A DNA stretch of 64,000 nt from Chrysoperla carnea. Lineage: Eukaryota > Arthropoda > Insecta > Neuroptera > Chrysopidae. Positions 27,601 through 64,000 of the stretch are shown here, one piece after another. A model generated the notes under the pieces. That model ran no database searches. It was not told the origin of the DNA and worked only from the letters and a program-made list of their open reading frames with translations. The position numbers and the translations under genes were made by a program. The stretch's first letter is position 1. Every line of letters begins with the position of its first letter. The DNA lies in assembly GCF_905475395.1 (NCBI RefSeq), contig NC_058340.1, forward strand, positions 61,172,181 to 61,236,180. Reading direction: 5' to 3'.

Positions 27601-29739
27601 AATAATGGGTTAAAACTCTAATCCAGACGCAGCTCTAATCTGAGATTGCTAGGATACCTTCAAAAGTCATTTTTAGCCACCTCTTCCGAAAATTTTGATT
27701 CACGTTTACTTCGAAATATAACGATTAAATATTTGTTTTGTTTCAAATTTGATCACCAAATTAAATTAATACAAAACTTAAACTGCTTGATAAGTGGCTT
27801 ATAGGTGTAGCCATTCATTAAAAAGCGATCAAATCGATTTTACGGATTTTAAAAAAAAATCATTAATTGTCGTCATTTATGTATTTTCAAAACTGAAGAC
27901 TGATTATAAAACACTTTAAATCAAATAAATCATCATTGATAAATTAAATGGGGTGAAGGATCTTTAGCTTAGAATTTCCAAGCAATTGTAAGTAGATGAA
28001 ATTTTAAACTGTCAAATATCTGTAACAACTTACTTAATAATGCCATTATGATGATAAATACAATTTGAAATTTCCACAGACATATCATAATTATATCCAT
28101 CTATAGAGTTTGTAATAGTTCTCTTACTCGGGCCCAAAACACTTAATTTTTGTTGTAAAATTTGTAATTGTCCCGTACAAAATAATAACAATGCAAAAAT
28201 AAACGTATCACCAGCTCCTAAAGAAGCTGCCGCAATAACAAATATAATCACTTGCATTACTAATACCATTTCATAGATTGGCGATTGATTGCTATCAAAA
28301 GGTAACCATGCATTTAATAACATTGGTTTTTTGATAATATTTGTATCTGTACCATTTTCAAATTTTATAAAAAATGGACCTAGAACAATCATTATTCAAC
28401 AAATTATATCTCATGAAAATTTTAGGTACACAACAAGTTAAATTTACAAAATTTAAAAAGTAGGAGTTATCCTAGATATCCTAGTGTGTGATCCATGGTA
28501 CATTACTTGTTTAGGTGTTGCTACTTACCAGATAAATAGAATTCAGCATGTGGTGCACAAATCAATCCCGTAGTTGTAATCACATCCAAAAAAGCAAACC
28601 CTAACGTGGCATATTTAACACGTTTATGATGTTCATAAAATAATTGTTTACTTTCTTTCGTACCATTATCCAAAATACTCTGTTCCGTTTCAATGATAAT
28701 TGTTATCATTTTGTAAAATTTCTCTTTCATAAATAATATTAAAAATACTTTTGCTAATGCAACCACATAACATAATGATATACTGGCATTTACAGTTAAT
28801 TCCTAAATACAAACAATAGATGAAAGTATTAGTCCTGGAAATCTGGTTATAAGTAGTGCAAAAGCAAGTCAAAGTTGTTGTTGCGTGGATCGATCGAAAA
28901 ATTAGGAAATAAAAAAGAAAATTAAAAAATCCGGCAATTACATGAAAACTATAAATTGAAACCTGACGTCGCGTCATTTTGCACATTTTGAATTTTTTTT
29001 ATATGACTTTCTGGTATAAAAATTGGTTGATATTTACTAAATTTTACTTTAATTATACTTTTTTCATGCTGTTATATAAGCTGATAAGCGCGACAAAAAC
29101 TTTTAACCGTTTTTCGCGAATAACTCAAAAGCCGTACAACTAATAGAAAAAATTCGACACAATAAAGTTTATAAAATAGCAAAGCGATTAGATTGGTTTA
29201 TCCTTTCAACAACTTGGATATGAAACCTCAACTGCTTGTATTCCATTAAAATGATATAATTTTAAACTTAAAAAAACTTGTATATAAGGTATCATGAAAA
29301 GAGTATTTTATACCAATTTGTATGATAATTTTGTTAAAAAAGTTCAATAATAATTTAGATGCATTGGCCAACTTTGCTATTTAAATGATGATTTGTCCAA
29401 AATTAATTTGATCGCGGTGTCCAGCAAAGTTGCGGATCACAACCGCAACATAACACAAATTGCTATAAAAAAAAATTTTTGTGATATCTCATACACTGTT
29501 TAAATTTATATCATTTTAAATGAAAAACCCTTGAAGAATACCTCTAAATTTTTCTGATCATAATACATTTGTATAAATTGTGTTAACAAACATATAATCA
29601 CACTATAATATATAATATAACCGTAATAATATTGACAATTATTTATTAATTGATATTTTGTTGTAATTGGGTACATGCCCATTAATTGTAAATATCTTAA
29701 CATTGAATACAATGATGTATTTTTTATGTTTAATGGCAT
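21636..29739 (-). CDS. Insect odorant receptor, complete seven-exon model (410 aa)
   Basis: Seven-transmembrane ligand-gated receptor of the insect Or family, which acts with Orco in olfactory neuron dendrites. Minus-strand exons are 29739-29542, 28802-28529, 28379-28034, 25599-25497, 25421-25320, 22848-22693 and 21689-21636. All have AG/GT sites. Exon-end phases are 0,1,2,0,0,0 and they join without a frame break. The start MPLNIKNTSL leads into YLQLMGMYP, a typical Or N-terminus. Hydrophobic segments are near residues 38-57, 71-90, 120-140, 185-220, 283-307 and 312-338. LCAIGFQATM is in exon 4, and MMRSQRPLIF (about 370-379) then RAGPFNEMSL in exon 6. The end, ILKASYTYLTILRQLYG plus stop, is the usual last short exon. 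The length equals the family norm and no lesions were seen. The ligand is unknown. The exon 1 donor (after NLE, GTATTC) is the weakest junction. Confidence 0.88.
22900..23030 (-). repeat. Helitron-like 5' region fragment in receptor intron/3' flank
   Basis: The reverse complement carries CGATTTTGATGAAATTTTGTG preceded by a GTTTGTATTTC.ACTCCTCCTAAACGGATGAAC stretch. This is the same layout as the 5' third of the insertion at 8098-8563. It lies just upstream of the acceptor of receptor exon 6, within intron 5. Confidence 0.5.
24615..25244 (-). mobile_element. MITE family M1, copy 2 (inverted)
   Basis: About 630 bp, starting TAAGGTAGTACGAGCGCC and ending in the inverted form TTGGTGCTAGCATTAA. 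The interior is the reverse complement of 18128-18692, including the block around GTTAAATAGGCC. It sits in intron 5 of the odorant receptor, about 75 bp beyond the exon 5 donor, with no effect on the splice site. Confidence 0.75.
26485..26575 (+). repeat. Short repeat shared with 11965-12060
   Basis: Second copy of the GGCAATTTTATTACAGATATG segment. It lies in intron 3 of the odorant receptor. Confidence 0.6.
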
Positions 29740-35682: not shown

Positions 35683-37842
35683 ATGAATTCAATAAAAGTA
35701 TTAAAAATACTTCTCCAGTTTATTTCTTCTATAGCTGTAATAAATGGAAATTTAATTACATTAGATGGAGAATGTCCATTTGCTGATCTTAAGCCAACAC
35801 CAATTGCAGTTGTTCCAGTTGTAAGTTTTTCTTTATACACAAGTCTTAAATTAAACTGGATGGGGAATCTGATCTAGACCTCATCAGACATTTCTATTCA
35901 GACACGGTTACTTCGAAATACAGCCAAATGGAAATTTTTGTTTTTAAATCTGAACGCCATTTATGTCAATACAAAGCTGAAAGTTACTTATAACTTAAAT
36001 TTAAAACTCATTCAAAAAAGGGCCCAGAGTTTGATACATTGGTTTTTCTTAAGTCTTTCATACCTTAAAATATGTAAAACTCCTGACGACTAGACTTTTA
36101 TAAATTGTATATGTATCTCTGCGTCACAAAATCTGTACAGAGCAAATGTAAAAATGATGCCATACTTTTTTTCTCTAAAATATATTGATATACATGTAAT
36201 ATATACATATCATAACTATTTTTAACAAACCTTTGAATTTTACCTTAGAAACCTTAGAATTTTTACTGAATTAATAAAAAGGGATAATCATAATCAACTA
36301 GTGTAGATTTTGTGACGTACGTTATGTAGAATATACATAAACCTTATTAAATTACAGTACACCATAAAATGCTTTACTTTTTCATAAATTTTTCTATTTA
36401 ATCCCAGCAATCGAACTCTTCCTGGTTTTTAATGATCCCGGATTAGTGAGACTCTATTGTATACTATTTTTTGTAGCTAAAAGGAAAATTCAATGCAATC
36501 GCTGAAACAGCCCAAGGTGGTATCAATCGAACTGATATTGCTGTGACTTTGAAACAAGTTGAATCGGACACAGTTAAAATTACAGATAGATTTCTATCGA
36601 CAGAAACTGATGAATGTATGGAATTTTTGATTTATATCACAGCTACAGACCAATTAGGAGTCTATAAAGCACAATATCAAGGTAAGCCATCACATTTTGT
36701 TTATTATTCTTCGACTTAGCTTTAATTTAAAACTCACTCGCCGTTTTACCTAAGGTAGTCACTCTTAGGTAACACGGCTGTGGTGTCACACATACATATA
36801 TCTGATATTCCCATATAACACATACTATAATATTTCAACCTATTTTACACCCTCACGGGTAAACAGTGATGTTTACGAAAAATGTTTCAAACAAAAGTTG
36901 TTAATTTTTTTACAAGGAACATTTTTTACATTTTGTTCTATCTCTAATGGTTTACAATATGAGTCCCACGGACCCAAGACCCAATAGACCCAATACTTTT
37001 AATGTCCTGAGCACGCTATAAAAATTTCAGCTCAATATATTTTTTCGGTTTTGAGCTATCGTGTTGTCGGGGACTAATTAGGTGATTTAATAAACACCTA
37101 TGTCAAAATTTTGTTTGTAGCGTCCATATTTTTAAACGTTACAAACTTAGGACTAAACTTAATATACCTTGATATATTTCATATATACATGGTATAATAA
37201 TGCAAGTATTGACATTCAACACTTTCTATACTGGGTATTTCAACAGTTAATTCAGTCAATTGTAAATGTTTTCACTTGTTAAAATTCGTTTCCAGGCCAA
37301 GGTAAAGTAACGTATCCATACACCATTAATTATTAAGCAATTCCAATTATATCTCGAAGTAAATGTGAATGAAAATTGCTTCTTTGAAGGGACCCCTTTT
37401 CGAACTAAATTCTAGCGCAAAAAGCTTAATAATAATAATTTGGATTTTTTTTAGTTGCTCCCGATACGAACTTCGTAGAATATACAGCATACTTTTTAGC
37501 ACTTGATATATTAACTTTGAGAGCTCTTGCTATTATATGTCACAATTTACCCGATTCAAAATATCAAGGTTAGTATTAGTTAGCCTAGAAAATTAATTGC
37601 ACCTAATAATTATAAAAAATATTTTTTTTATAGTTGAAATTGCAGTACTATCAGCATTAACATCAAAATACGACGAAATAACACAGAAACAAGTTAAAAA
37701 AGTATTAGAGGATAATAATATAGGGTATTTAAATGAATATCTTGTCGAAATTGAAAGAAATGATAAATGTGGTTTTTCGCCATCGGAAATAATTGATTCA
37801 TTATTACCATCTAAAGATGCTTTGTTACCCGGTAAATCATAG
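35683..37842 (+). CDS. Lipocalin-like secreted protein A (221 aa)
   Basis: Exons are 35683-35820, 36477-36681, 37455-37568 and 37634-37842, with phases 0,1,1 and GT..AG throughout. Residues 1 to about 22 form a signal peptide (hydrophobic core ILLQFISSIAVIN). The mature protein has four cysteines in the lipocalin arrangement (GECPF, TDECMEF, IICHN, NDKCGF), alternating beta-like strands, and a C-terminal helix pattern. The sequence EIAVLSALTSKYDEITQKQV then KKVLEDNNI corresponds to the lipocalin C-terminal helix and strand. The classical GxW motif is not evident, so membership rests on pattern and on paralog C. It probably binds a small hydrophobic ligand extracellularly, which is inference from the fold. 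Intron 2 carries a rearranged R1 repeat. The tail after the last cysteine is about 22 residues longer than in B. Confidence 0.82.
36775..37290. repeat. Interspersed repeat family R1, rearranged copy in lipocalin A intron 2
   Basis: The body (about 36775-37200) is the reverse complement of copies 4843-5292 and 32004-32535. The terminal block TATTTCAACAGTTAATTCAG (37236 onward) lies in the same orientation as theirs. So the body has been inverted relative to its right end. Confidence 0.65.
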
Positions 37843-37881
37843 TTCCACATTCTACTCATTTCTTTCTGAAATTAATTTAAA

Positions 37882-37887
37882 AATAAA
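37882..37887 (+). terminator. Poly(A) signal of lipocalin A
   Basis: AATAAA 40 bp after the TAG stop. Confidence 0.65.
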
Positions 37888-38109
37888 ATTTTATTCAATC
37901 AATATTACCCATTTTTTATTGTTTATAAAAATTATTTTGAAAAAACAATTGTTTTTTCCTTATATCTTCTACCCTTTGTTCCACTATCCTATGAAATATC
38001 GGGCTTTTACCATTATCCTGATAAGCAGATAAATATTTTAAATATAAATTCCAATGGCTGTTATAGAGATACTATTCTAATAAAATTAAGGATTCTGAAT
38101 CAGTTAATT

Positions 38110-38272
38110 ATTTGGCTATCGATATTTCAAAAACCAAGACAGATATCGAAAAATTGTATTCTCATTTCTCATCTACATTCATGAAATTATAACAAAATTC
38201 ATTATCAAATTTGAAAATAAGGTAGAAATTATTTCAACTCTAAATCTAAACTTGCCTTGGTGCTCGTATGCT
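38110..38272 (+). repeat. MITE family M1, partial copy
   Basis: Matches the right part of 18128-18692 (TTTCAAAAACCAAGAC then GAAAAATTGTATTCTCATTT, ending CTTGCCTTGGTGCTCGTA). It abuts the SINE at 38273, which probably inserted at its right end. Confidence 0.65.
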
Positions 38273-38490
38273 AGGGTAGCGGGTTCGATTCCCGCCGTCA
38301 CAACAAAAAATAAATTTAATGAATGGTTGAGATGAGCTAGTATATACATGGAGGAGGTGTACTTAGCCTCTTATAAATAATTGAAGAGATGATAAATAAA
38401 ATTATCAGGGGAAAAAGTGTAAAACAAAGAGAGGACCCCACGGATCTTTCATGGACAGTCAATAACCAAACCTAGCCTAACCTAAAACGC
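38273..38490 (+). repeat. tRNA-derived SINE, 5'-truncated
   Basis: Begins inside the tRNA-like head at the B box (GCGGGTTCGATTCCCGCCGT), followed by a body with GAGGTGTACTTAGCCTCT and a tail ending CCTAGCCTAACCTAA. The full-length relative is at 2738-3033 (minus). 5' truncation is the usual product of reverse transcription from a target. Confidence 0.8.
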
Positions 38491-38751
38491 TTAATCATAT
38501 AAAGTAAAAATTATCTTTGACCCCAATTAGTATTTTAAACTAAATATTATACTTTTATTATTTCTTACTAATTTTATAGTAACTTAAACATTGACATAAT
38601 AAAATCAATAGTTTTTGGTCCATTTCTAAATACATGAAATCTACTCGACTATCTATATAGCCTAAGCAGTGAGGGAAATCAACAAATCGGCCTAGTACTC
38701 ACTGCGGCAGGGTTATTAAGAATGCTCAAAACAAATAGAATAACTTTTTAA

Positions 38752-39105
38752 TTGTTAATTTTACTGCCCCTTCGAAGTTTCAGCGCATCTGAAAAACCAA
38801 CAATTAAAGGCATGGACCAGCTACGAGGGAGGGCTGATATTAGAGTCATCGTAGAGTTACTCACAGGGCATGATAACCTGAACAAGTTCCAACATCAGAT
38901 TGGAAAAAGACAATCTCTCGCGTGTGACAGATGCGGAGAAAATTCAGAAGAAACATCGATCCACTTTCTCTGTTACTGCCCGGCGCTCATACAGCAGCGA
39001 AGGAAATGGTTTGGTCCGGCCATAGTCGAACCAGAAGAAATTAGGAAACTCAGCGCTAGACAAATCCTGGGTTTCAGTCCATCAGTTAGTTATAATAGCC
39101 ACTGA
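38752..39105 (+). pseudogene. Non-LTR retrotransposon ORF2 C-terminal end
   Basis: The frame reads QLRGRADIRVIVELLTGHDN followed by CDRCGENSEETSIHFLCYCP, a C-x2-C-x..-H-x4-C knuckle. It ends ILGFSPSVSYNSH plus stop. This is the last domain of R1/jockey-like ORF2 after RNase H. It is 5'-truncated with no reverse transcriptase upstream, and the knuckle frame itself is open. It differs from the copies at 14490-15085 and 50850-51247. It lies between lipocalins A and B. Confidence 0.8.
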
Positions 39106-39465
39106 AAAGCGTAGCGGGGATAGAGTACAAGGGTCTATTTGGCTAGGTGCTCTGAACCATTGCTGCGAGGCGCGATGCTCGAGATTCTGGTAAAAAATAC
39201 TGACCTAAATTTTTTAAACAACCGCTAAAATTATGTCAAACAGTAGTAAATCGATGTTTAAATTTCTTCCACCGCCTAGACAAATATAAAATTATAGAAA
39301 AGTAATTCTAAGTATGCGTACGTTAATTAGTAACCTTAATGCTACAGTATAACTATACCGTGTAGCATATAAAATTGTTGGAGTTTTTTTATTTAATATA
39401 TCCACTCGATTTGTTTAAATTAACGTAGAATGTTGCAGTAGTCTTATCACGATTCAAATTATAAA

Positions 39466-40934
39466 ATGGAATTAAACGGATTACAACCAATTATTGTTGC
39501 ATTAATATACCTTGTAACAATAATAAATGCAGATATAGTTCTCTTGAATGGTAATTGTCCATTTGACGATCTCAAAGCGTCTTCTGAAGCCAATGTCTCA
39601 AACGTAAGTACCTAAATATTTTTCTAAAATATTCCAACATAATATATAATTAGTTTATTTTATAGTTTGGAGGACAAATCAATGTACTCGCTGAAACATT
39701 TGAAGAAAAACGAGATCGATCTGATACAACTAGCTTTTTTGAAGTGGTAAAGCCAAATGTTATTAAAGATACCAGTAAATGTCGATCTAGAGAAACTGGT
39801 GAATGCATGAAATTTAATATTTTCCTTAAAGCTACTAGCACAGTTGGAGTTTATGATACTTATTATGAAGGTACTTAAAATTTTTTAAAGAAATTATATA
39901 TAAATATTATCGAAGATAATAAATGAGAACTCTAGGATATTTCGAAATAAATTTCGATTTTTGCCCCAATTTCCTAGATCAGTTTTTGTATTTTATAAAT
40001 TCGTATTTCGATCGACTACCATGTAGCCATCATCAGTAAGAATTAGCTAGCCGTGAAAAATCGAAATTTATTTTAAAGAATTTATAGTTTAGCTTTAGGG
40101 AATACAAATACTGGAGAGTAAAGCCCCAATATTATATAAGTATATATTATCCTATTTTGGGGGATAAAGTTTTTGAAATCTGCATGTTTTGAAATGAATT
40201 TTACACACAATAGGGTACACGAATGTGAGAAGAAATTTTTCTCCCTCAGTTTTAAGAAGAGGAAATGACCACAAAATTTGTTTTTTAATCCCTTCTTGCT
40301 CTTTAGATTCAGTGCAGGCGATTGATTCTAGTTCAGAAAAACTTATAGATTGATATCCCGGATGTTGTCAGAAACCTTTTAACTGTTTCTGTAGAGGAGG
40401 GGGAGGAGTGGGGATACATGAAATTGGACCAATAGGATTTCTGGCAACATCCGGAATATTAATCTACACACTTTTATGAACGAGAATCAATTGATAAAAT
40501 GCCGCCCCAATATTTTGTACACTCAACTCTAAAAGCATATGTAAACACTGAAAGCCCTAAATTTATGCTTGGTTGACACACGGCTAACTTTTTCTTTTAT
40601 TTTACAGAAGCTCCAAATAGTGATTCTTACGTAGAATTTCGTACATACTTCTTATATTTTGATAAAGGTCAATTGGGTGTTTCGTTCATGTGCCGTGATT
40701 TGGAAGAAAAAACATACGCAGGTTCTATTTTTTTCGAAATTTTGTCATTTTGTTTATTTCAATGTTAACAGTTTTTTACTTTTTGTTGTAGCTGAGCTAA
40801 AAATTTTGTCTGGAAGTACAAAAAAATATGATAATAAAATCAAACGTAAAGTAAAGAAAATATTAAATTCGAATAACATAAGCTACTTGGAACCGTATTT
40901 GGATACGACTAATTTCGATAATCCATGCCAGTAA
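39466..40934 (+). CDS. Lipocalin-like secreted protein B (199 aa)
   Basis: Exons are 39466-39603, 39666-39870, 40608-40721 and 40792-40934. The first three are exactly as long as those of lipocalin A (138, 205 and 114 bp), with the same phases 0,1,1. The signal peptide core is IIVALIYLVTIINA. The mature start IVLLNGNCPFDDLK parallels ITLDGECPFADLK in A. Cysteines are at NCPF, SKCRS, GECMKF, FMCRD and the final NPCQ, so it has one more than A in exon 2. The C-terminal motif is KKYDNKIKRKVKKILNSNNI. Introns 1 and 3 are very short (62 and 70 bp). Same inferred role as A: an extracellular carrier of a small ligand. Confidence 0.82.
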
Positions 40935-41095
40935 ACTCAGTTATTTTTTCATATGATGTGCACCATATAACCCAAAAAAAATCCTTGCTTATCTTTTATA
41001 AAAATTTGAAGAAGTCGAAACTGATAATTTTTTACTAGGTATTATATTACCACATAGTACAATTTGATAGAAAAAATGCAAAGAATGAAATTAAC

Positions 41096-41101
41096 AATAA
41101 A
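41096..41101 (+). terminator. Poly(A) signal of lipocalin B
   Basis: AATAAA about 160 bp after the stop. A second AATAAA-like hexamer follows nearby. Confidence 0.45.
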
Positions 41102-41159
41102 TAATTTAAATAAATGCAAAGAATTAAACTAATTGACGTAAATGTAAATATTATAAGTA

Positions 41160-42480
41160 GATAAGCTAGGAATGTTATCAAGGTTCGCCATACTTTTGCC
41201 TTATAGGGGGAAGGTGTCCTATAATGATCCCCCTAGAAAAAATGTAATTTATGGCCAAACTATTCGAGATATGTATAACGTCGAAATATTTTTGGGTTCT
41301 TTATTCAAATTACAATAATGGCATGCCAATTTCTTTTGATTTGTTCAAATTTTTACAACTATTTAATATTTCTCAAAAAGGATCGTTTTGACCGACCTTA
41401 TAAGAATAGATAGATAAAATGATTCCATTGTAGTTTTTACCAAACAGTTCACATAAAATATTAATTGTTCTTTTATATTGCACCAACGATTAGTATGAAA
41501 ACAAAAACCGCTGCTAAAATCATCCAAATCAACACATTCAAGACCCGTCACATGATGAGGGATCATTTTACCTATTATAATTTTACACACAAAATGGGGA
41601 TCATTTTAACGTGTATAAAGGGGATCATTTTACCGATAACGACATATTTTAATATCGTCATAAAAACTGACCTTGGAATTATACGTATACCAAAATGTGT
41701 TAGAATATTATTAAAAGTCAACAGAAGCCAATAATAGTGAAACAACCAGCCGGCGAAAACTATCACAAACAATTTTACGTGGAAATTTGGCTTACCATAA
41801 AACCATATACCATAAGCATTAAAATTAATATTTTTACTACGAAACACAAAATAGCTTATACATCGCACTAAATTTTTGTTCAACGATTAATATGATCACG
41901 AGGAAGCAACCTATGGATAAATGTAATTCGCTTCAAATACCCGTGCAGAGTTAGTATCCAGCAACGACCAGGGATGAGATACCAGGATGTGTGTCATTCA
42001 TATTCTCACCTGTACAGCACAAAACTGACGTCATGGTACTTAAACTTACTTTTACATAAAGCAGCATCTTTTACAACATAGATTCCTGGTGAATTATTTC
42101 ACCCGAAAAATTTCAGCATGTGGTCTATATATTTAACTGTGGAAGGATTCAATCAATAATTAAACATAATACTTGAAACTGAAAATTTTTATTATTTCGG
42201 TAGAACACTTCATAACAATATTTCAAATATTTATTTAAAAAAAAATACAAATTATTCTAGTTTAGACATGTAATTTATAACTCAATGACGTCTCCAAGGG
42301 GGACAGGGAGGAACAACTGCTCTAAAGATTCGTAAACAAGTGTCATTTATTTTGCGATTTGTATTCTCGCTTGAAAGATATCTCGAATTTGGTTCTTGGT
42401 AGTTAAAATTTTTATTTTCTACATTTAACAACTTTAAATTTTACATATCTACCATTCTGCTGTCCTTTACGGAAGCCTGA
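41160..42480. other. Intergenic, weak repeats only
   Basis: Three GGGATCATTTTA phrases lie at about 41558-41636, and a GGGATGAGATACCAGG patch near 41970. No gene or element could be delimited. Confidence 0.4.
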
Positions 42481-42584
42481 ATGGTTCATGATCAATTTAT
42501 GAGAAAGTGGCGGTACACTAGCTTATTTTTTAAATGTGTACCACCCACAAGTATAAAACCAACTTTCAAAAAGTGCACTTGTGA

Positions 42585-43142
42585 CTTGTGGTTATGGAAA
42601 CAAACCTTTTTGAAAATGTCAGTCGGTGATAACTATTATTTAATTAGCCATTACCGGAACCAAAGAATTGCCGAAATTGTCTGGAATTATTAATAATTGT
42701 ATATCCGGATTTAATGATAATATGATAATGTTTATAATTTGTATTATGTAGTTAAAAAATGTGTTTATGTATTTAAAAAATATAATGCTTTAGCCTTTTT
42801 CCTAAGAAAATTAAAAAAAGATCCGCTAGATGGCAGGAAATCAAAATAAAGGAAATCAAAATATTCTTATCTCCCTAGTTCTGCCATCTAGCGAATCTTT
42901 TTTTAATCTTCTTACGGAAAAGGCTAATTAAAGCATTACTTTTTTAAATAATACTAAAAAAAATTTTTAACTAACTACATAATAAAAATCATAAACATTA
43001 TCATGTTATCATTAAATCCGGATATACAATTATTAATAATTCCAGACAGTTTCGGCAATTCTTTGGCTTCGGTAATGGCTAATTAAAGAATAGTTATCGC
43101 CGACTGACATTTTCAAAAAGGTTTGTCTCCATAACCACAAGT
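42585..43142. repeat. 558-bp near-perfect palindrome (foldback)
   Basis: Two arms of about 255 bp are inverted copies, by eye more than 90% identical, with a short spacer near 42840-42885. The outer ends are ACTTGTGGTTATGG and its complement CCATAACCACAAGT. The inner arms meet at AGATCCGCTAGATGGCAG and CTGCCATCTAGCGAATCT. The differences between arms are mostly substitutions. No coding frame spans it. It is a foldback-type MITE or an inverted duplication, and a transcript would fold into a long hairpin. Confidence 0.85.
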
Positions 43143-43149
43143 TATGTTT

Positions 43150-46100
43150 TTGTTCTGGTTTCAGTTACTTATTTATTAAATTAAAAAAATTTAATTGAAT
43201 ATTAATTCATGTTATTTTAGAATATTGTTTTTATTATTTATTGTTAAAATAAAAGAAACAAAAAATTAATTATCCATTTAAAAAACATGATTGTATCTGT
43301 ATCTACACACAACTAATACGAAAATTAAAAAAATTAAAACACAGGTACAACTAGTGACTAGTAAAAATTGGTATCGGCATATATTGGTATTGGTATATAT
43401 TTAATTTTAGAAAATTATTTTTATATCTTATTTTAGTATTGCTGATAAAAAAGCACTGAAAAACCTTGGCTTACTGTTGCATTCTTCACTTGGTACATTT
43501 TATGAAATTATAGAAAACGTAAAAACAAAATAGATTAATATTTAACCCGAAAAAATTTGTCGAGGCTCCGTTAAAACAATTTTACACGAAATATTATATA
43601 TTTATGAAGTGCAACTATTCGATTTTTCTCAATTTATTTAATTATACTTTCTTTCTTTTTTTTGTTTAATCCTGATATTTTTATTGCTGATTCTATAGGA
43701 AAGTTCATTTTTAGTAATTTATTAATTAATATTTATATATACATACAGAGCGTTCTGCTATTGATTGCAGAAGAAGCTCATAACGACGAAGGAAAAATTT
43801 ATTTTCCACTTTTGGATCTGAAATTAATATATCTTTATCGAATCACAGTTCAATAAAATTTTGAATGAAACCAATAAAACACTACTTAAAAGAGAGGGTG
43901 TGTTTTATCATAGTGGAAGGTGTCTCTAAACGCAAAATTATTACAAAAAAACTCTATTTGGCTACTTATGTTATCATAAAAACTAACCCATTAAAACCTA
44001 CACTGCTTTTCTTTGTAAATTAAGTGTTGTACGCAACTTATCGTGCGATATCACATACCGTAAGCATTAATTTAGCAAAACGGACCAGTCTGTTTTGATT
44101 TATGCTCAGATACATATACTTCGAGACAAACCAAAGTATATATGTTGTGTGTTGACGTTGTAAAGTGAGACAATGTTTAAGATTTTGTGTTCTGTATTAC
44201 ACAATTTATTTCCCCTATCCCGGACCTATCATAATATATACTTTGATACCTCCCACATCTAGTTGTATTGATGAATCATATTTTTGTTTTCTTTATAAAT
44301 AATAAAAACAAAAATTTTTTTTAGTATTCACTACCCAATGCAATCAATTTACAATCAATTATTGTTTTATGATAGTCTCTCTATATTCTAAATTGACACC
44401 TACTAATTTGATGAATTTGATAGGTCTGTGAATTCATAAATCATTCTATTTTCCCATAGTCACATCTTCCGCATCAGGCCTCAAATGGAAATTTGGTATA
44501 GAGCTTTTCCATTCGTCTTGACAAGCTTAATTTAGTGGTACAATTTTCTGCTATCAATAACAGAACATCCTATAAATATATTTATCATCTTTTGTTATTT
44601 TCTACGCTACACGCTCGTTAAGTAGACTTTAAATACAACTATATGTAATTTGGGTACTATTTTTTTACCTTACTAAGACAAGTAAGGATTTAAAAATGTT
44701 GTACGTACAAGTATACGTTTTTTATTAATGATTAATAACAAAATGGAATTATTAATTTCAAAAAAAAAATTCCTAATGCACAGAAGAAGCTTTAAGAGTT
44801 TGTTTGGTAAGCACTGTTGCGCAAAAAGATAACGCGTTTGGTTGTGAGCTAAACCATCACAAAAATGCAACGGATACGATCTGCATTATCGGAATTCGAA
44901 ACGGTAATTTAAGTTTATGGTGGTCCGTAGTTGCCGTACAAATTTTACTGGACTTTAAATATACTTTTGATGAATTATTCTTTCATTTATATGTGAATTT
45001 GTGGCAAAAAAAAACTAATGCAAGTTTAACCTTAGTTTCTATAGTAATTAGAACTCAAGTCACGATATTCCAGATCATTTACCTTAGAAATTAGACAAAT
45101 ATTTGTTAAGAAATTGCCTGAAATCGTTCCAGGTACTCCTTGGATGGGGTTTTGTACGATATCCCAGAATTTATGCATCCAATCATCAAATAAACTCAAT
45201 TTTTGTATTTATGAGTCAAATTTGCAAATTATTCTGTTAATTCCAAAATTTTGAAAACCCTTAAAAAAGTGGTAGAGCAATAGGATGGGTAAAATAGCAT
45301 GAGATCTAAAACATAAGATCTGCCATCATTGCCACTGACTACTAGTTGCTAGTAGTATCTATTTAATTATTTTTTAAAGATTTCGATTTATAGTTCAAGT
45401 AATTTAGTGCCCAAATTACATACACCTTTTAAATACTATACATCTATTAATTATAGATAATTTTGTAAAATATAATATATAATTTATAATATATAAAACA
45501 TTTAATTAAAAATTAACATTTTTTAAATATATATAAAACTCACACAGGATTACAAAAAACGGTAAACAAATAAAGCGCCATTTACTTAATTATAAATATT
45601 TATATTAATTATATTACTTGCAATTTAAGAAGTTTGTATCGACCTACAGTCTTATTTGGAAACGATTGTGTTAGGTTTGTAAAATTTTCATTTTTTTTAA
45701 ATGAAATTTGGTTTTTAGGTAAGTTATCAGAATGATGATTGTTTCAAATAAAATAAAATAATTAATAATTAAAACTGATGCAATGTAAAGGCTGTTGTTG
45801 TTTTTACAAGTTACAAAATTTTAATCGAAATTATGCTCATAAAAGTAGTATTAATCGCCATGATATTGAATTCATTGGAAAACTAATTTAAATTCATTTA
45901 TATTTAAATACGATATTGTATTTTCGTTCTTTTAATCCAGCAGCTAGGAGTCTATACCGGCAATTTCATGGCAAATATTGAATTTTAAGTGATCTGGCAC
46001 CGCCATATCGACAGATTTTTACTTTTGATGCCGAAAAATTAATTGCTAAGCACCTCTAGAAAATTATCTCCAAATATGAGCTCTTAATATAAATAGGAAG

Positions 46101-47360
46101 GTCCTTCTCATTAAAGTTTTCCATTTTTATCTCAGTTTCAAATGAAAAAATTCAAATATTGCAATTACTTTCAAAATATCGTGCGTTCAACTTTCGCCGC
46201 CTTTTAGATCAAACATAATTTAATTATCAAATCTCTTGCTCCATTTCAAAACAATCTTAAATATTTTTTACTGATAACTAACCTATTTTTCTCTACAACT
46301 ATTTTATTGTTTTATTAAATACTGATTGATGACAGTTTTATTTATTTCAGTAGTCTTGAAAATTGGGCTCAAAAATATTCATATAACTGTTAGAAAGCGT
46401 CATCAAATTGATTTTGAATTATTTACTACATATTAAGGAGGTTACGTCTAAGTCACTGTGAATGGAAATTAAGTTTTTCTAAGACTTTCTGATTTTTAAT
46501 TCTCAAGATTCAAAAGGTTTTTTCTATCTTTTTTTTCTTTGGGTACTCTACATATGTAAAAATGATCGATGTTGACCTCGATGACTACCTCAGCAAGGAC
46601 ATAGTAAAATCAAGTTCATTTTTTAAAGAACAGAGTTTCCAATTTAACAACGGGCGAATATCTCTCATGAAAGTGAATATTTAAAACCAAATTTTTCTCA
46701 CCATGCCTAGAGCCTTTCTGAAATAATTATCTTAGGCATTTTTCTGTAGAGTATACAATAAATTTTCTCGCTTTATATTTCGAAATTTCGATACGAATTG
46801 ATGATTTATTATTCGATTCGTATCTCTCAGAATTTTTAATTCACTAGATCTTTTTGTTTTGTGGTCTATTTATCATCATGACATTATAATTAACCTTTCG
46901 CTTTGTAGAAAAATAATGCATAAATTATTATCGTTATTGAGAAAACAAGTGTCTTGCTGCAATACTACTTTCTGAGAGGTTCAAACTTTTTTCCCCGGTA
47001 ATTTCTCCGACTTTCTTAACGTTAATTTATGCTAAACTTATTAACTTGAAATGTGTCGTTGACAACTGAGGAAGTTATGCTCATTTCAATTTGTTTTAAA
47101 GAGAAAAATTGTAAAATTAACAAAGAATTTTAAACCTTGCTAGTCAAACTTTAGGAACCGTTGCTGACTAGAACAATGAGTTGACACTTTCAATACTGAT
47201 GACCTTTTTCGTAACAAATATTATAATCTTTGGCTTAACATTTGATTTCTATTAAAAAATAAAAATAAATTTTAGTGAATAATTTTGAATCAATGGGATA
47301 AAACGAACTCGTATTTCGCTGACAGGAAAGCAAACTAAAAATAATTTCGGTATTAACAAA
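43150..47360. other. Intergenic between lipocalin B and Ric
   Basis: No supported gene. A possible short terminal exon at 43749-43856 (frame ending with TAA, AATAAA overlapping) has no recognisable upstream exons. The frame at 44804-45094 lacks an ATG and any domain. Confidence 0.45.
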
Positions 47361-47366
47361 ATACAT

Positions 47367-49405
47367 TCACGGTGAATATTGATGGTGCCGTTTACGTTTA
47401 AATACTAACGTAAAAATACTACGTAATCGCCACCAACGGCTATGTTTACCGCTCGGATGATGTTTACCATCAACACAATTGGCACCATTAGTGTTCATTT
47501 TTTGACGTTCCTTTAAACGTATCTCACGTACTAACGTATGAAATGCTTCATCAACATAATGGCGTAATGCGGCTGATGTCTCATAGAATGGACATCCAAA
47601 TTGTCTCGCTAATGCTTTACCCTCTTCCAATGAAACTTTACGTTGCGGTTGTAAATCAAATTTATTACCAACTAAAACTAATGGTATATCTTCACCAGCA
47701 CGTACACGTGCTATTAACTTCCTATATTCCAATGCCTCTTGAAAACTATGACGATCTGTTACTGAATAACATATTAAAAACCCTTCGCCACATCGCATAT
47801 ATTGGTCCCGCATTGCAGTAAATTCGACCTGTAATATAAATTACAAACGCTATAATATTTGTATAATTGGCAATAAATTGACAAAACTAGAACATTGTTT
47901 TCGGAGTATACTTCAATGGTAATAGACCTAGCTAGAACGAAAAAGTCTAGTCTATAGAAAGAACAAATCTAGCCTATTTTGGCAATTTTTATTTACACTT
48001 AATTGAAAAATAATGAGTCTAGCAAATTTTGAGGACACGCAAGAAAATTGAGACTCTTATCTGAATAAAACTTTAATTGACAGCTTCTTTAATGAAAATG
48101 GTAGTTTGATGATTGAAAAAATTTAAGTGTCAACTCTCATCAGGGTTTCATATTCATGAAAATCGTGTTTTCGAAAAACCCGTTTTTGTCTTCCGTATAA
48201 CCGGTTTTTCGAAAAAAATTTTAAATCAATTTCCTAAACTCCGAGTTTTTCCAAAATATGTTTACTTAAAAGCTACTATTTTTCTCCGAATTATTTAATT
48301 TTATTTAAATTTTAAACTCTTTGCATATTCAAGAAAATTAAAATACAATTTATAAATAGTTTGAAATATGAATATTATAAATAATTTGCAAAGTGACTTA
48401 AATTTAAAAGAAAGATACTTTTGACTATGAACTATGACTAAAAATGAATTAAAAATAATATCCATCCAAACGACAACTTAAAATAGTTTAAATACTTAAA
48501 AATATCCATAATTGATCCCGTCATTAGGGATGAAGTTGGCTGGCGCCATTAACCTACCTATGGAAGAAACTTATATTAATTTTTAGTTGATATCATTTGA
48601 GAAATTCAATCAAAATTATCGGTTACATATTTTCTTAGTAACATTTCGTCAAATTAAAAAAAAGAAGGGTAGTTTACCAAAAATAAAAATAGTGATTCCA
48701 AATTTTTGGCTACCCTGTACATTTTTAAGAAGTTTTAAATATACCTACATACTTTTCATAATAAGCAAAACTTCTTATAAAGAATGATTTTTTTTCTTAA
48801 AATACAAAATAAGAAAATTTACAAGTATATACCTCTATCCGGGGACACACTGTATATATTTTCTTTTTCGTTCAAAATTTAACATAATAAAATTACTCAC
48901 CTGACCAGCAGTGTCTAGAATATCTAAAAGAGCAGGTTCTCCATCAATAACCGCTTGTTGTTGGTAAGAATCCTCTGAAGAATAAAAATGAATATTTTGA
49001 AAATTAGTTACGTGGAAATCATTTAATGAAAAATAAACATACTGAAACATTTAACATTTCAAATTTAAAAAGAAATAATACTTACCAATTGTTGGATCAT
49101 GATAATCTAAAAAACTGTGACTCACAAACTGCAATGTAACAGCTGTAAATTACAAAAACACCAATAATACGAAAATTTAAATTTTGCTTTGTGATTTCAA
49201 AATTACCCGATTTGCCAACACCTCCGTCACCGAGCACAACAATTTTATAAACACGTAATCCACCACGTGTTGTTTGACTTGTAGTTACGGTACCAGGTTT
49301 ATCTACCTCAAATTCTGTACTAATTCCAGATTCTTGTCTTGAAAATTTACCTTTTTTCTTGTTTGGTACAGTAGCTGTACCGGAGCATGTTGCTTCTCCG
49401 GCCAT
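47367..49405 (-). CDS. Ric: Ric, calmodulin-binding Ras-family GTPase (263 aa)
   Basis: Ras-like GTPase of the Ric/Rit group, a plasma-membrane signalling switch. Exons are 49405-49207, 49142-49086, 48974-48901 and 47828-47367, with end phases 1,1,0. G1 is GDGGVGKS (59-66), effector DYHDPTIEDSYQ, G3 DTAGQ (106-110), G4 NKFD (165-168) and G5 ETSA (193-196). The C-terminus (238-263) is basic-hydrophobic, [18 protein letters not shown], with no CAAX box. In the family this tail gives calmodulin and lipid binding. Fly Ric is of nearly the same length as far as I recall. An N-terminal extension of about 50 residues precedes the G domain. The start at 49405 is the first ATG in frame, since the upstream frame opens only with TTG. 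It lies antisense between lipocalins B and C. No lesions seen. Confidence 0.93.
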
Positions 49406-49911
49406 TATACCAACACAAGGTAATACACGACGAAACTTACACAAAATATTTACAAAGTAATATTTTCATCAAAATATTTACATTCAAATTGAAATTAATT
49501 AATATATTTTTATGTTGTCTTATCAATTGATCAACACCATACCACTCCTCTGTTTCATTTTGACATTTGACAACAAATAACAGCTTGTATGCCATCTGTA
49601 AGAGACTTTTTGAAGTTGAATGTTGAATTGTTGAATAATTACACAGGTCTGCGACTAAAAAACTGCATAGGATTTTTTTACATTTTCTTATAGATTTTGA
49701 CCTCCCAAAAACAGGAAAAATATTCAAAATAATCTATCACATAGGTTTTTATAGATATTAGTAACAACATAAACTAGTCTTAAAGTAGTATTATTGCACA
49801 ATGAAAATAAATTAGCTTCGCTTCCAATGGGGTATTCTGTGCATATGGAAGAAAACTAATTGTAATAATTTGGCCATTATTCTGGAAAGAATCAAATATC
49901 AGGACCATTAA

Positions 49912-50130
49912 TGGATGGCTTGTGGGGACTTTTGGGTCAGAAAGCAGCTGACGATGCTATTGGGTCAGCAGGCAGGCTATACTATATACCCTTGCTTCTT
50001 ATGCTTATGGGATAGTAGTACCAGAAAACAGTATTGGACTAAAAGTGATTGGCCACCCCGAGAAACTTCAAAACCTGGAGAGAAAAATGTTATCAATACT
50101 ACTTTGGTGCCGCCAGAAAAAGTTTTGAAA
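49912..50130 (+). pseudogene. Transposon-associated protein relic (CFLCLWDS motif)
   Basis: The frame reads CGDFWVRKQLTMLLGQQAGY followed by PCFLCLWDSSTRKQYWTK and DWPPRE, then LVPPEKVL. I recognise this from a protein family repeated many times in arthropod genomes, with the pattern CGD..V...LLG.Q.GYT.YPCFLC.WDSR..K.H and W. It behaves like a transposon-encoded protein of uncertain class. Only about 70 residues remain and the frame closes soon after, so it is a fragment. Confidence 0.6.
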
Positions 50131-50849
50131 AAAAAAAATTTTTATTTTTGTACATATTTAAATTGTCTCATTCTCATATTTAAATTGCCCATGTGAAAAC
50201 TCTTGCTAATTAGCTACGTTCGTGAAGATATTTATAAACTGTAACATTTCTGATAATTATTGAAAACAAAAACAATGAATCAAAAATTTTTCTAAAATTA
50301 ATTAATCGTGCTTTATCGCACTCAAATAAATAAGTCAAGTAAATTAGTAAGAGTACTGTTAATTTTATACGTGCAAAAATTGATCAACAATTATAGGTAT
50401 ACACTATATACCTATGATAATCAATTTTACTAATAGGGTAAAGAAAGTATGATTCGGTAGGTGTTACATAATGCAGGGAGGTAGAAATAGCTCAAGTCAG
50501 TTATTGAGCTGATTTGCCGCTAGTCATATCTTAACAGCTACAAAAATGAGCAATTTTTTAGTTCCAGATAGTTATAGCATCATACATAAAATTTCGCATT
50601 TTACATTAAGAACAATCTCTATTTACGGAAGAGAAAGCTTTTTATACGGAAGAGAAATCTCGCAGTAGATGACAGTACTTCTATATTATTTGACCGGGAA
50701 ACACTCAGAGTGACTAGAATATATAGTAATTATAGTCAGACTTGTGGTTGAAATTCAAAAGAGGCGAGAATTGTAAAGCAATTTTTACACTAAATTTTCG
50801 TTTTTAAGCAATTTGATATTTGCGAACTGCAAGTTGCTCCTCAAAGAGG

Positions 50850-51345
50850 ATATCTTAAAAAGAGCCAATTTTAGATGGAAGGAGGAACGTACTTGTGGTA
50901 CTAGAAGACAGATATGGTCTGAGTACAATCGCAGGCGTTCCGAAGATCTTATATCACTTCCAAGGGCCTCTGTTCGCAAAGTTGTTGCGGCTATTACAGG
51001 ACACTGGTTGGGCGGCAGGCATGCTGAACGTCTGGGCCTGGCAGTGTATCACGACTACTGCAGGAGCTGTCACAGTGGTGAGGAGGAGTAGACAATGTCT
51101 CATCTTCTCTGTCACTGCCCAGCTCTTGTCATGAGGAGATGGACTTACTTGAGCCAGCCTCTCTTTGACGACCTCTCCGACCTGGAGTCCGTCGACGTCA
51201 AAGCTCTTCTGCTGTTCTTAAACAGCTCCAAATGGTTCATGGAGTAGTGCTCGGGGATGGGTCAACCCTTTTTCACAACGGACCCTATGGTTTAAGTGTG
51301 TCCCACCCCAGGACAGCCACTCTAACCTAACCTAACCTAACCTAA
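50850..51345 (+). pseudogene. Non-LTR retrotransposon 3' end with CCTAA-repeat tail
   Basis: One frame reads LISLPRASVRKVVAAITGHW followed by RHAERLGLAVYHDYCRSC, a stop at 51089-51091 in place of a sense codon, then TMSHLLCHCPALVMRRW and a terminal stop after NSSKWFME near 51247. The C-x2-C...H-x4-C knuckle marks the ORF2 C-terminus. About 75 bp of 3' UTR lead to TAACCTAACCTAACCTAACC (51322-51345) in place of poly(A). It is 5'-truncated. The last 50 bp of UTR resemble the 3' end of the SINE at 2738-3033. Confidence 0.85.
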
Positions 51346-51399
51346 GCAATTTGATCAATTTGAACACTGGAGAAATTCTATATAGCAAGTATGTTAGTA

Positions 51400-52050
51400 C
51401 CTTCCTAACAATGTATTCTTGGAATTTTTGATGAATAAATCCGCCTACGTTCTTATTGAAGAACGATAAAGATCTTGAAACTAAAGGGCAAAAAAGAAGG
51501 CCTTTATTAATAGATTTTTGTCTACGGGCGCAAAATTTTTTAATCTGCCTCTGCTTACACTGTGGCCAGCCTTTCGATACCGGTACTTTTTCGTCGTTAT
51601 TTCAAGAGCATAATTCAAAATCAATATTTTTATATTCATATATCGAAACATCTAATATCGATATTTTAACATATCGATGTATCGTTGTTTTTTCTATTCA
51701 AATGAACAGACTGACTGCATTGTGCCATTTCATTATTTCTGTTAAAATCGTTCGTCCTATAAAACCACTATGGAAAAGAATGTCTTAGAATGTTGTGTAT
51801 TGATTTGACTAGTGTTTGATCTCTAAATTTACGCAAAATAAATCAGACACCGTACTCCGGCTTATTTTATTATGAACATAGTCGAGTTGCTTAAAGTTTG
51901 TAAAGGATATTTTGCATTTAGACTGTGATTAATTTGACCTAACTTTAAATCAAAGTAAAGTTTTACACATAATTTGCTTTCCCCAGTATTCATAAGTATT
52001 ATTTTTAGATTTAGATTAGCTTAAATAAACATAATATTTATCGGTTTGAC
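51400..52050. other. Upstream flank of lipocalin C
   Basis: No gene recognised. The 110-codon frame at 51456-51788 has no domain or signal. Confidence 0.5.
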
Positions 52051-52059
52051 TTATGGTCG

Positions 52060-52067
52060 TATAAATA
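52060..52067 (+). promoter_or_regulatory. Candidate TATA box of lipocalin C
   Basis: TATAAATA lies 83 bp before the final-frame ATG at 52150. This leaves room for a start site near 52090 and a roughly 60-base leader. The start site is not proven. Confidence 0.45.
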
Positions 52068-52149
52068 AGACATCACGTCTCATTTTCTTACTTAAAAAGT
52101 CTTTTTTAAGTAAAGTGTGAACTTTATATGAAGAACAAATAAATATATA

Positions 52150-54307
52150 ATGAATTATTTATTGAGTACATTTCTATTTTTATCAATTACCTTTATTCCT
52201 TTAACATACGCCGTAGTTTTTAATGGCAAATGTAATTATGATAGTTTAAATTATTTAAAAAATGTAACCATCGATAATGTAAGTAATTTAAAACAATTTT
52301 TTAAAAATATTTATAGTAAATTCTAATTCGATTTTAAAAATCTAAACAAATTTTTAAATTCTGAATCGAGCAATTTCTCAAAGTAAAGTTATTGGTTTTT
52401 AATTCATTAAAAGGATTTTCGATACTCGGACTCACAGCATCTAGCAAGTTATATATTTTTATACATTTACACATGTATTGATATTCGCTGATTTTTTAGG
52501 ATGTTGATGTTTATACTTTAAATAACAATACAGATATGAAATTATGAAAAGAAAATGATGCAAATATGCAATTCAAGTATATGCAATTCATGCATTTCTT
52601 GCTAAAAATATAAGCAAATTTGATCATTTTTAGACATTTTTATACTACATTTAACACATTTTTGTAAAACAAATTGCCTATATTAAAAACTTTTTGGTTG
52701 ATAGAACTCCTCTGTGAATATAAATTCAGGTTTTTAGTAGCATTTTTTGGTTTTATTATTTTCTTTTCATAATTTCATTATTGTATGTAGTTTAAGATTT
52801 TTTAGATTAGTATCATTCTATTCTCAAATAATGTGACTATACGCCAGCAAAATCATACAAAAAAAAAAAACTAAAATCGCAAAACGCGATGTACTTAAAG
52901 CTACTTTTTTAGTATCTTATTTGGACCCCTTAGTGGAGTGTAAAACTTTGTTTTGCAAGCAAAAAACATGTTGCGCTGCCTGCGTTATCTTTGAAAAACT
53001 ACACAATTTACGGATTTTGCAGTTCAATTCAAAAACTATGAGCTTTTGACATCAGTTTGAAAGTATATTAAATTTGAAACAATTGAAGCCAACCCACAGC
53101 TCCGTATGTCAAATAGTTTTTGAGATATGATGTTTGAAAAATTTAAATGGTTTTCAGAAATGTTAAAATTTTGAATTTTGCATATGGTAAACTATTAGAG
53201 ATAGAAAGATAAACAACTTTTGTTTGAAACAATTTGTCGTAATCATCATTGTTTTCTCATGAGGGAGCAAAATTTTGTTGTCTATTTTCTCTAAAAATAT
53301 GAAAGATAGAGAAATGAAAATTTATAGCTTCAACTAGTGAGCCTTATGAAAACTTTTTGACATAAACGAAAAAAAAGTTTTCTAAAAAATACTTTGATCA
53401 GATGGATGGCGTCTGGAAGGAGATGTAACTACGTTTTGCAAGCAGCTTTACATCGCGTTTTGCGATTTTATTGTAAAATTTAACTGGCATACTAGAAAAA
53501 ACATCGAATTTTCAAAAATAATGTTTTTACAGCTTTTAGTGTATGATGGTAATAAAACAATTTCACAATATTATGTAATTGCCACCTATGGTTCTGGATA
53601 CCAGGATAAAATGTGTGTAACAGAACAGTTGGTGAAAATCAACTCCACATATATACAAGGTGCTCGTCAATATTTGATACGTGGTGATAAAACATTACAA
53701 ACACAACGTGCACTACATACTATTGAAAAGACTAAAAAACCTGGATTTTTTACAATTAGACGACAAGGTAAATAATATTAGGATGGTATCTACAGAAGGT
53801 TGAAAAAGTGGAAGGAGGGACAAAAATCATCTTAATTGATAATGTAGAATATTCTTTATACATCCAGAACTTAACGCACCAAGTTTTTTCGAAATACAAC
53901 CTGGACTTTTCGCAATTTTCCAGATTGCGTTTTTCTACTTTAATTTACTGGTTTTTTTTTTTAAAAATTTAAAGTTTCCATTTTTTTTTAGAATATGAAG
54001 GACACCCTTACTACACTTATGATGCCTTTATATTATCCAAGGATAAGCACATCTTGTTATTCTATTTATGTCGAGATTTATCGAATGGAAAACGAGATGG
54101 TATGTAAAATAAATCATAATAACTTTATAATAGAACTTTAATTTCAAAAATCTTTACTTTTTAGTGACTGTATTTGCATTTTCATCAACTCAAAGTGGTA
54201 TAACAAATGTGGATTATGAAGAGCTACAACAAAAACTGAAACGAAGTAATATCAATATGAATTTTATTCAATTTGTTGAAAATGGTGTCACCGTATGTCA
54301 AATATAA
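52150..54307 (+). CDS. Lipocalin-like secreted protein C (204 aa)
   Basis: Exons are 52150-52278, 53533-53767, 53992-54099 and 54165-54307, with phases 0,1,1, the layout of A and B. The signal peptide core is LLSTFLFLSITFIPLTYA. C is the most canonical member. YYVIATYGSGYQDKMCVTEQ (exon 2) matches the lipocalin first strand, where W is replaced by Y and the cysteine follows the Y-x-I-A-x-Y motif. GFFTIRRQ is a middle strand, ILLFYLCRDLSNGKRD the strand before the C-terminal helix, and the protein ends VTVCQI. Four cysteines fit the two usual disulfides. The long intron 1 (1254 bp) holds fragments related to R1 and a segment copied at 57585-58520. Role as for A. Confidence 0.85.
53160..53280 (-). 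repeat. Repeat R1-related fragment in lipocalin C intron 1
   Basis: GGTAAACTATTAGAGATAGA followed by AACTTTTGTTTGAAACA and TCATGAGGG corresponds to the middle of family R1 (compare 32300-32370). Only about 120 bp remain. Confidence 0.5.
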
Positions 54308-56223: not shown

Positions 56224-56480
56224 GGGTATTATCGTTAGTCAAAAATGAAATTTGAAAAAAGTTAAAATTTATGTAAATAAAAATATACTTAAATATTCTG
56301 ATTTCGAGTCATAAAAGCACATTTTTCTTTTAAAATATTAAAATTAAAAATCGTAATTTTTAAACTGTGTATCACGTGACCTAAAACGCGGGTAAGCCCT
56401 GCTGTGATGACATAGCGGTATGAATCATAGACCATCAGTTAGTTCAGTGTAGACAGCTGGGTATAATATATCCACAGATA
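56224..56480 (+). repeat. Interspersed repeat family R2, long copy
   Basis: ATAGGGTATTATCGTTAGTC start, ATTTCGAGTCATAAAAGCAC block, then TATCACGTGACCTAAAACGC and CTGTGATGACATAGCGGTAT. It matches 63787-64000 almost base for base over about 210 bp. Confidence 0.85.
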
Positions 56481-63786: not shown

Positions 63787-64000
63787 TAGGGTATTATCGT
63801 TAATCAAAAATAAATTATGAAATTTGAAAAAAGTTAAAATTTATGTAAAAATTTACTTAAATATTCTGATTTCGAGTCATAAAAGCACATTTTTCTTTTA
63901 AAATATTAAAATTAAAAATCGTTATTTTTAAACTGTATATCACGTGACTTAAAACGCGGATAAGCTCTGCTGTGATGTCATATCGGTATGAGCCATATAC
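63787..64000 (+). repeat. Interspersed repeat family R2, copy cut by the window edge
   Basis: Third copy of the ATAGGGTATTATCGTTA family, colinear with 56224-56440 up to the last base of the window. Confidence 0.85.

Follow-up and report, generated by a model that had tools for sequence, protein, structure and literature searches.

A dispersed family of probable outlier lipocalins in the lacewing Chrysoperla carnea

The window analysed here is a stretch of 64,000 nucleotides from chromosome 4 of the lacewing Chrysoperla carnea (NCBI RefSeq assembly GCF_905475395.1, contig NC_058340.1; C4:61172181-61236180, with C1, C2 and C4 standing for chromosomes). It contains three genes, named A, B and C, each with four coding exons on the forward strand, which had been predicted from the DNA letters to form a tandem family of lipocalin-like paralogs. 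The structure of these genes, their relatives elsewhere in the genome and their kinship with lipocalins are described below.

The three gene models of the original prediction were reproduced in their coordinates, lengths, splice sites and intron phases (Table 1), including the equal lengths of exons 1-3 in A and B (138/205/114). All nine introns are bounded by GT..AG, the phases are 0/1/1 in each gene, and the junctions fall in shared columns (46, 125 and 164) of the three-protein alignment. The N-termini of the three proteins are hydrophobic when read by eye, and their mature size, counted after residue 22, is 20.3-22.1 kDa, in line with the ~20 kDa typical of secreted lipocalins. An AATAAA signal lies 40 nt past the stop of A and 54 nt past the stop of C, and a TATAAAT sequence is found at 52060, near exon 1 of C. 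At a GC content of ~30%, chance alone would by arithmetic turn about 8% of codons into stops, so the ~200 open codons of each gene are far from chance. The coding status and the constraint of A are further supported by comparison with a relative on chromosome 1, cl_g1 (dS 0.86, dN 0.21, dN/dS 0.24). The codon-position test between A and B was uninformative, with differences of 0.49/0.34/0.49 at positions 1/2/3. A genome search with C recovered its own four exons alone at E<=1, so the model of C rests on its frame, its splice sites and its profile match. The proteins are 35-36% identical between A and B over ~190 residues and ~20% identical between A and C; the earlier statement that similarity is low apart from the cysteines does not hold for the first pair.

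Table 1. Coordinates of the exons of genes A, B and C (positions in the window), of their relatives (chromosome positions) and of the gene between B and C (positions in the window)
Feature	Coordinates	Strand	Details
Gene A exon 1	35683..35820	+	138 nt; signal-type hydrophobic N-terminus; first cysteine C31; ends in phase 0; chromosome-1 relatives align
Gene A exon 2	36477..36681	+	205 nt; predicted strands A-E; G-K-F replaces G-x-W; predicted strand-D cysteine C93; ends in phase 1
Gene A exon 3	37455..37568	+	114 nt; predicted strands F-G; C143; ends in phase 1
Gene A exon 4	37634..37842	+	209 nt including stop; predicted strand H and helix; C198, then 23-residue tail
Gene B exon 1	39466..39603	+	138 nt; ends in phase 0
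Gene B exon 2	39666..39870	+	205 nt; predicted strand-D cysteine C93; ends in phase 1
Gene B exon 3	40608..40721	+	114 nt; ends in phase 1
Gene B exon 4	40792..40934	+	143 nt including stop
Gene C exon 1	52150..52278	+	129 nt; ends in phase 0
Gene C exon 2	53533..53767	+	235 nt; strand-B cysteine C71, like aligned ordinary lipocalins; ends in phase 1
Gene C exon 3	53992..54099	+	108 nt; ends in phase 1
Gene C exon 4	54165..54307	+	143 nt including stop
Chromosome-1 array	C1:130424799-130457984	one strand	12 genes
Single family genes elsewhere	C1:472351, C1:24348576, C2:71154790, C2:71168981		one gene each
Ras-family GTPase gene	47367..49465	-	unrelated; between B and C; extent from two open reading frames

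The family comprises at least 19 genes, namely A, B, C and 16 more on several chromosomes. The N-terminal 114 residues of A, used as a query, gave 28 genome matches, 20 of them within a single stretch of chromosome 1. The 16 added genes were built from ten genomic pieces with a gene finder that forced the phases 0/1/1 and the length ranges, and all are without internal stops. Using B, C, the gene cl_g11 or a member from chromosome 2 as the query added no sure locus in the genome; a weak match joined C4:18272139-18272279 to exon 4 of B (E 0.013). Within the window, a tblastn search for a further copy gave nothing below E 0.7 except the matches among A, B and C.

The idea of a tandem family of three was not borne out. 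Gene A is nearest to the array gene cl_g1 (67% identity), not to B (35%); the tree leaves the placement of B unsure, and C forms a long, unsure branch. Nor is the row uninterrupted, since the gap between B and C measures 11.2 kb and holds a Ras-family gene on the opposite strand. The window thus brings together A, a dispersed relative of the chromosome-1 array, B, a diverged neighbour, and C, a lone distant relative. The ratio dN/dS, estimated by NG86 for 12 chosen and partly overlapping pairs, was 0.24-0.67 in 11 of them and 1.41 in one recent-copy pair with few changes, so constraint is seen on members other than A as well. In one array gene (cl_g3, L010; C1:130432788-130433113) exons 3 and 4 are fused by a precise loss of the last intron at the junction predicted for it, which leaves frame and sequence intact. 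The members at C2:71154790, C2:71168981 and C1:24348576 are near-copies on two chromosomes (86-91% protein identity, dS 0.05-0.08), which probably represent the recent dispersal of one family member. The genes may already stand in the NCBI annotation of this genome, which is mentioned in PMC10116181.

The kinship with lipocalins was assessed by profile comparison. Against a profile of eight known lipocalins, two rows of which were entered from recall and unchecked, A, B and C together scored 53.7 (94.5%), and none of 200 shuffles reached this score (maximum 20.2). A and B alone scored 34.6 and C alone 29.8 against the same eight lipocalins, each above all 200 shuffles. With all 19 genes the score was 57.1 (95.2%), and with the 18 genes other than C it was 49.5 (92.5%), with 0/100 shuffles as high in both cases. 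The match to the lipocalin profile is collinear over 130-142 columns, and C matches the profile of the other 18 genes at 94.9%. A second profile, of nine lipocalins including four from the lacewing, gave the 18 genes a score of 45.7 (89.5%), with shuffles at <=21.8, while the controls, namely the family reversed and three proteins encoded elsewhere in the window, scored 8-14. In a search of the PDB with a 13-member profile, 11 chains were found at E<=10, of which ten were OBP/MUP-group lipocalins, with MUP variants accounting for seven; the best E was 0.071, so no chain is significant alone. The profile of A, B and C placed Equ c 1 on top (E 0.65) and also matched two caspase chains. Taken as sequence comparisons, these results show a full-length similarity to lipocalin profiles beyond chance.

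A second line of evidence comes from the positions of the introns. The comparison set consists of four ordinary lipocalin loci of the same genome (L031-L034), a lower bound found with one NLaz query, all of which pass the Pfam lipocalin cut-offs; splice sites were taken directly from the genomic sequence of each, and the columns were compared in three alignment modes. In L032, L033 and L034 the G of GxW is preceded, at a distance of exactly two residues, by a phase-0 intron, the first intron of L032 and L033 being seen on the acceptor side only. The first intron of A and B is also found two residues before the G, here of G-K-F and G-Q-I, and C has ~10 extra residues after the intron. This first-intron column is identical for A, B, C and three of the four ordinary lipocalins in all three modes. 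In two of the four (L031 and L032) a phase-1 intron is placed one column off the last intron of A, B and C, again in all modes. The other two, L033 and L034, are interrupted in phase 1 within the loop that precedes strand F, near the middle intron of the three genes, at a distance of 1-2 columns in L034 depending on the mode. Genes A, B and C carry introns of the same phases at lipocalin sites, with the middle site dependent on the alignment mode. Exon-intron structure has been accepted as an argument for outlier lipocalins (PMC2254393), and ApoD likewise has four coding exons (PMC8530192). Each ordinary locus shows its own subset of introns, with the last only in L031, the first and last in L032, and the first and middle in both L033 and L034, which may form a small series of intron loss or gain.

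There are four cysteines in A and C and five in B. The shared cysteine frame of the original prediction stands in part: three of four cysteines occupy shared columns of the A/B/C alignment, and the second falls in strand B in C but in predicted strand D in A and B. Across the family this second cysteine is found in predicted strand D in 18 of the 19 genes, while C and the four ordinary lipocalins have, by position, the strand-B site. The strand-B cysteine bonded to the C-terminus is described as conserved in arthropod lipocalins (PMC2254393), and by sequence position C alone of the 19 genes has it. The strand-D cysteine of A aligns to the cysteine column of MUP and beta-lactoglobulin.

Several observations weigh against a lipocalin origin. 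The GxW motif is missing from the first 90 residues in all 19 genes, several of which read G-K-F, G-K-Y or similar at its site, and this absence points to an outlier lipocalin rather than a kernel member. A second kernel-lipocalin motif, T-D-Y in the F-G loop, is carried by the ordinary lipocalins in the alignment with the three genes and was not seen in A, B or C on reading it. Pfam gave no lipocalin match for A, B, C or any of the 13 members scanned singly, and single-protein PDB searches gave no lipocalin either, with no match for A, one antibody for B and four unrelated chains for C. The profile evidence for C varies with the reference set, since C alone scored 21.1 (3.2%) against the nine-lipocalin profile and 15.3 (0.4%) against a first three-lipocalin profile, with which A and B reached 31.6% and the three genes together 25.5%. 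When a profile of 13 members was compared separately with one of four ApoD/bilin-binding sequences, the match was just 63% (E 7e-5). Furthermore, the middle intron of L033 lies one to eight columns off the A/B/C site by mode, the distance being eight in two of the three modes, and the forced phases of the 16 relatives provide no independent count of phases.

The PF00061 cut-off is likewise missed by Bla g 4, a known lipocalin of the cockroach, which does pass the Triabin cut-off. A six-frame scan of the genome with PF00061 gave no match, and it missed the four ordinary lipocalins too, so it carries no information. A search of Rfam at gathering scores also gave no match. A lipocalin profile search had been proposed as a check of the original prediction, and its outcome was divided, Pfam being silent and the profile-profile match lying beyond the shuffles. 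As a whole, the original interpretation is partly supported; within it, the view of the three genes as lipocalin-like paralogs is supported, mainly by the profile-profile results and by the introns that they have in common with ordinary lipocalins of this genome.

The absence of a Pfam match, of GxW and of lipocalins in the single-sequence PDB searches would also be expected of a secreted four-cysteine beta family that has no lipocalin descent and has converged on lipocalins. This explanation is regarded as very unlikely, as it has to account for a collinear match of 130-142 columns that no shuffle in sets of 100-200 equalled, for a PDB profile search that lists nearly all lipocalins, and for intron sites and phases in common with lipocalins of the same genome. 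It could also be argued that some members, C foremost, are decaying or mis-modelled genes, because C finds no other match in the genome at E<=1 and sits on a long, unsure branch. However, the frame of C is intact over four exons with canonical splice sites and is accompanied by TATA-like and AATAAA signals, its junction columns are those of A and B, and it matches the profile of the other 18 genes at 94.9%; decay or mis-modelling is considered highly improbable.

A different objection concerns function rather than descent. The proteins could derive from lipocalins without being carriers, and bind other proteins as salivary or immune lipocalins do, for instance in a secretion that the predatory larva injects or applies. 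Loss of GxW, divergence and gene arrays would fit such a role, judging from the kind of family, and the larval venom of C. carnea has been described as rich, with tandem-array families among its components (PMC12758981). Against this, although as weak evidence, the word 'lipocalin' occurs 0 times in the main texts of that venom study and of PMC11319779. Such a non-carrier role is considered unlikely.

The explanation preferred here, with a probability of about 0.85, is that A, B and C are secreted outlier lipocalins, with a signal-type N-terminus and a predicted barrel closed by two disulfides, which would hold a small, probably hydrophobic ligand extracellularly. The cysteine expected to partner the C-terminal one would have moved from strand B to predicted strand D in 18 of the 19 genes, with C keeping the strand-B site, and the strand-D cysteine and the loss of GxW would together fit the blindness of Pfam to the family. 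A secreted carrier is the default role for the lipocalin fold, and the most likely role of the family would be that of duplicated carriers for differing small molecules, such as semiochemicals, pigment or the secretion of a gland. For expanded sets of lipocalins in arthropods, a part in chemical communication has been proposed (PMC8214410). Exon 2 of B, modelled in an alignment with the corresponding exons of A and C, shows five strands and lacks a helix, but at a mean pLDDT of 49.8 the model is too poor to use; it is consistent with strands A-E and does not serve as evidence.

The ordinary insect lipocalins (NLaz/ApoD-like, bilin-binding protein and insecticyanin; four in this genome) share with the family the domain order, the intron sites and phases, and the first, third and C-terminal cysteines, and C also keeps the strand-B cysteine. 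The family differs from them in having neither GxW nor a Pfam match and in the position of its second cysteine. Its best PDB profile matches are the vertebrate lipocalins OBP 1F, Equ c 1 and MUP, and the strand-D cysteine with its flanking run aligns with Equ c 1 and MUP. These two retain GxW, unlike the family, and the likeness, which includes no significant single match, may be convergent. A bolder proposal is that the family is the lacewing counterpart of the mammalian urinary and odorant-binding clusters, which would have dropped GxW, moved the second disulfide from B to D as vertebrates did independently, and come to carry semiochemicals or a defence-gland secretion; it is thought rather improbable.

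Another comparison is offered by the outliers of the tick histamine-binding type, which are held to be lipocalins despite the loss of signatures, with exon-intron structure as evidence (PMC2254393, PMC3695081). The tick structure retains the disulfide from strand B to the C-terminus (PMC2254393), unlike 18 of the 19 genes, and no tick lipocalin was found among the PDB matches listed for A, B, C or the 13-member profile. In its duplication clusters and broad divergence the family resembles the expanded lipocalin sets of arthropods, for which 3-49 genes per species with wide divergence have been charted in Bombyx, Helicoverpa, Rhodnius and others, 9 of 12 genes lying in duplication clusters in Bombyx and 5 of 8 in Helicoverpa (PMC8214410). 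The same survey names GxW as the 'most strict requirement' for a lipocalin, so families like this one could escape such a rule; the words 'Neuroptera' and 'lacewing' occur 0 times in its text. In a literature search for Chrysoperla and lipocalin, the two papers with both words concern a spider mite, by their titles and abstract openings, and in the one lacewing paper among the matches listed 'lipocalin' occurs 0 times in the text.

The window also holds features outside the family. The open reading frame at 47367-47840 of the Ras-family gene, which resembles the Rit/Ric type, matches Pfam Ras (E=1.6e-29), and its second one, at 49097-49465, has no Pfam match. On the reverse strand there are an insect odorant receptor exon (28030-28395; Pfam 7tm_6, E 1.4e-10) and the C-terminal region of a hAT transposase (7676-8146; Pfam, E 4.4e-9). 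Two remnants of reverse-transcriptase elements were recognized by eye on the forward strand, at 38752-39105 (weak zf-RVT match, E 0.079) and at 50777-51345 (no Pfam match), the latter followed by a run of TAACC repeats near 51320-51345. An inverted repeat at 42584-43142, with 171-nt arms that are 95% complementary and spaced by 217 nt, looks like a small DNA transposon. Finally, a 162-nt direct repeat occurs at 56271-56432 and 63839-64000 with 91% identity, its second copy reaching the end of the window.

For C. carnea, a predator in wide use for biological control, gland transcriptomes have been published (PMC12758981), so the tissue of expression and the exon junctions can be checked at once. 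The family is unusual in the missing GxW and in the strand-D cysteine, and this moved cysteine makes it possible to ask whether the same arrangement of disulfides arose independently in insects and in vertebrates. Counts of insect lipocalins based on Pfam or GxW would overlook such families, which in this genome means at least 19 genes against at least four ordinary loci. On the present comparisons, C. carnea would possess a secreted outlier lipocalin family that standard sequence models miss and whose intron places still point to its origin.

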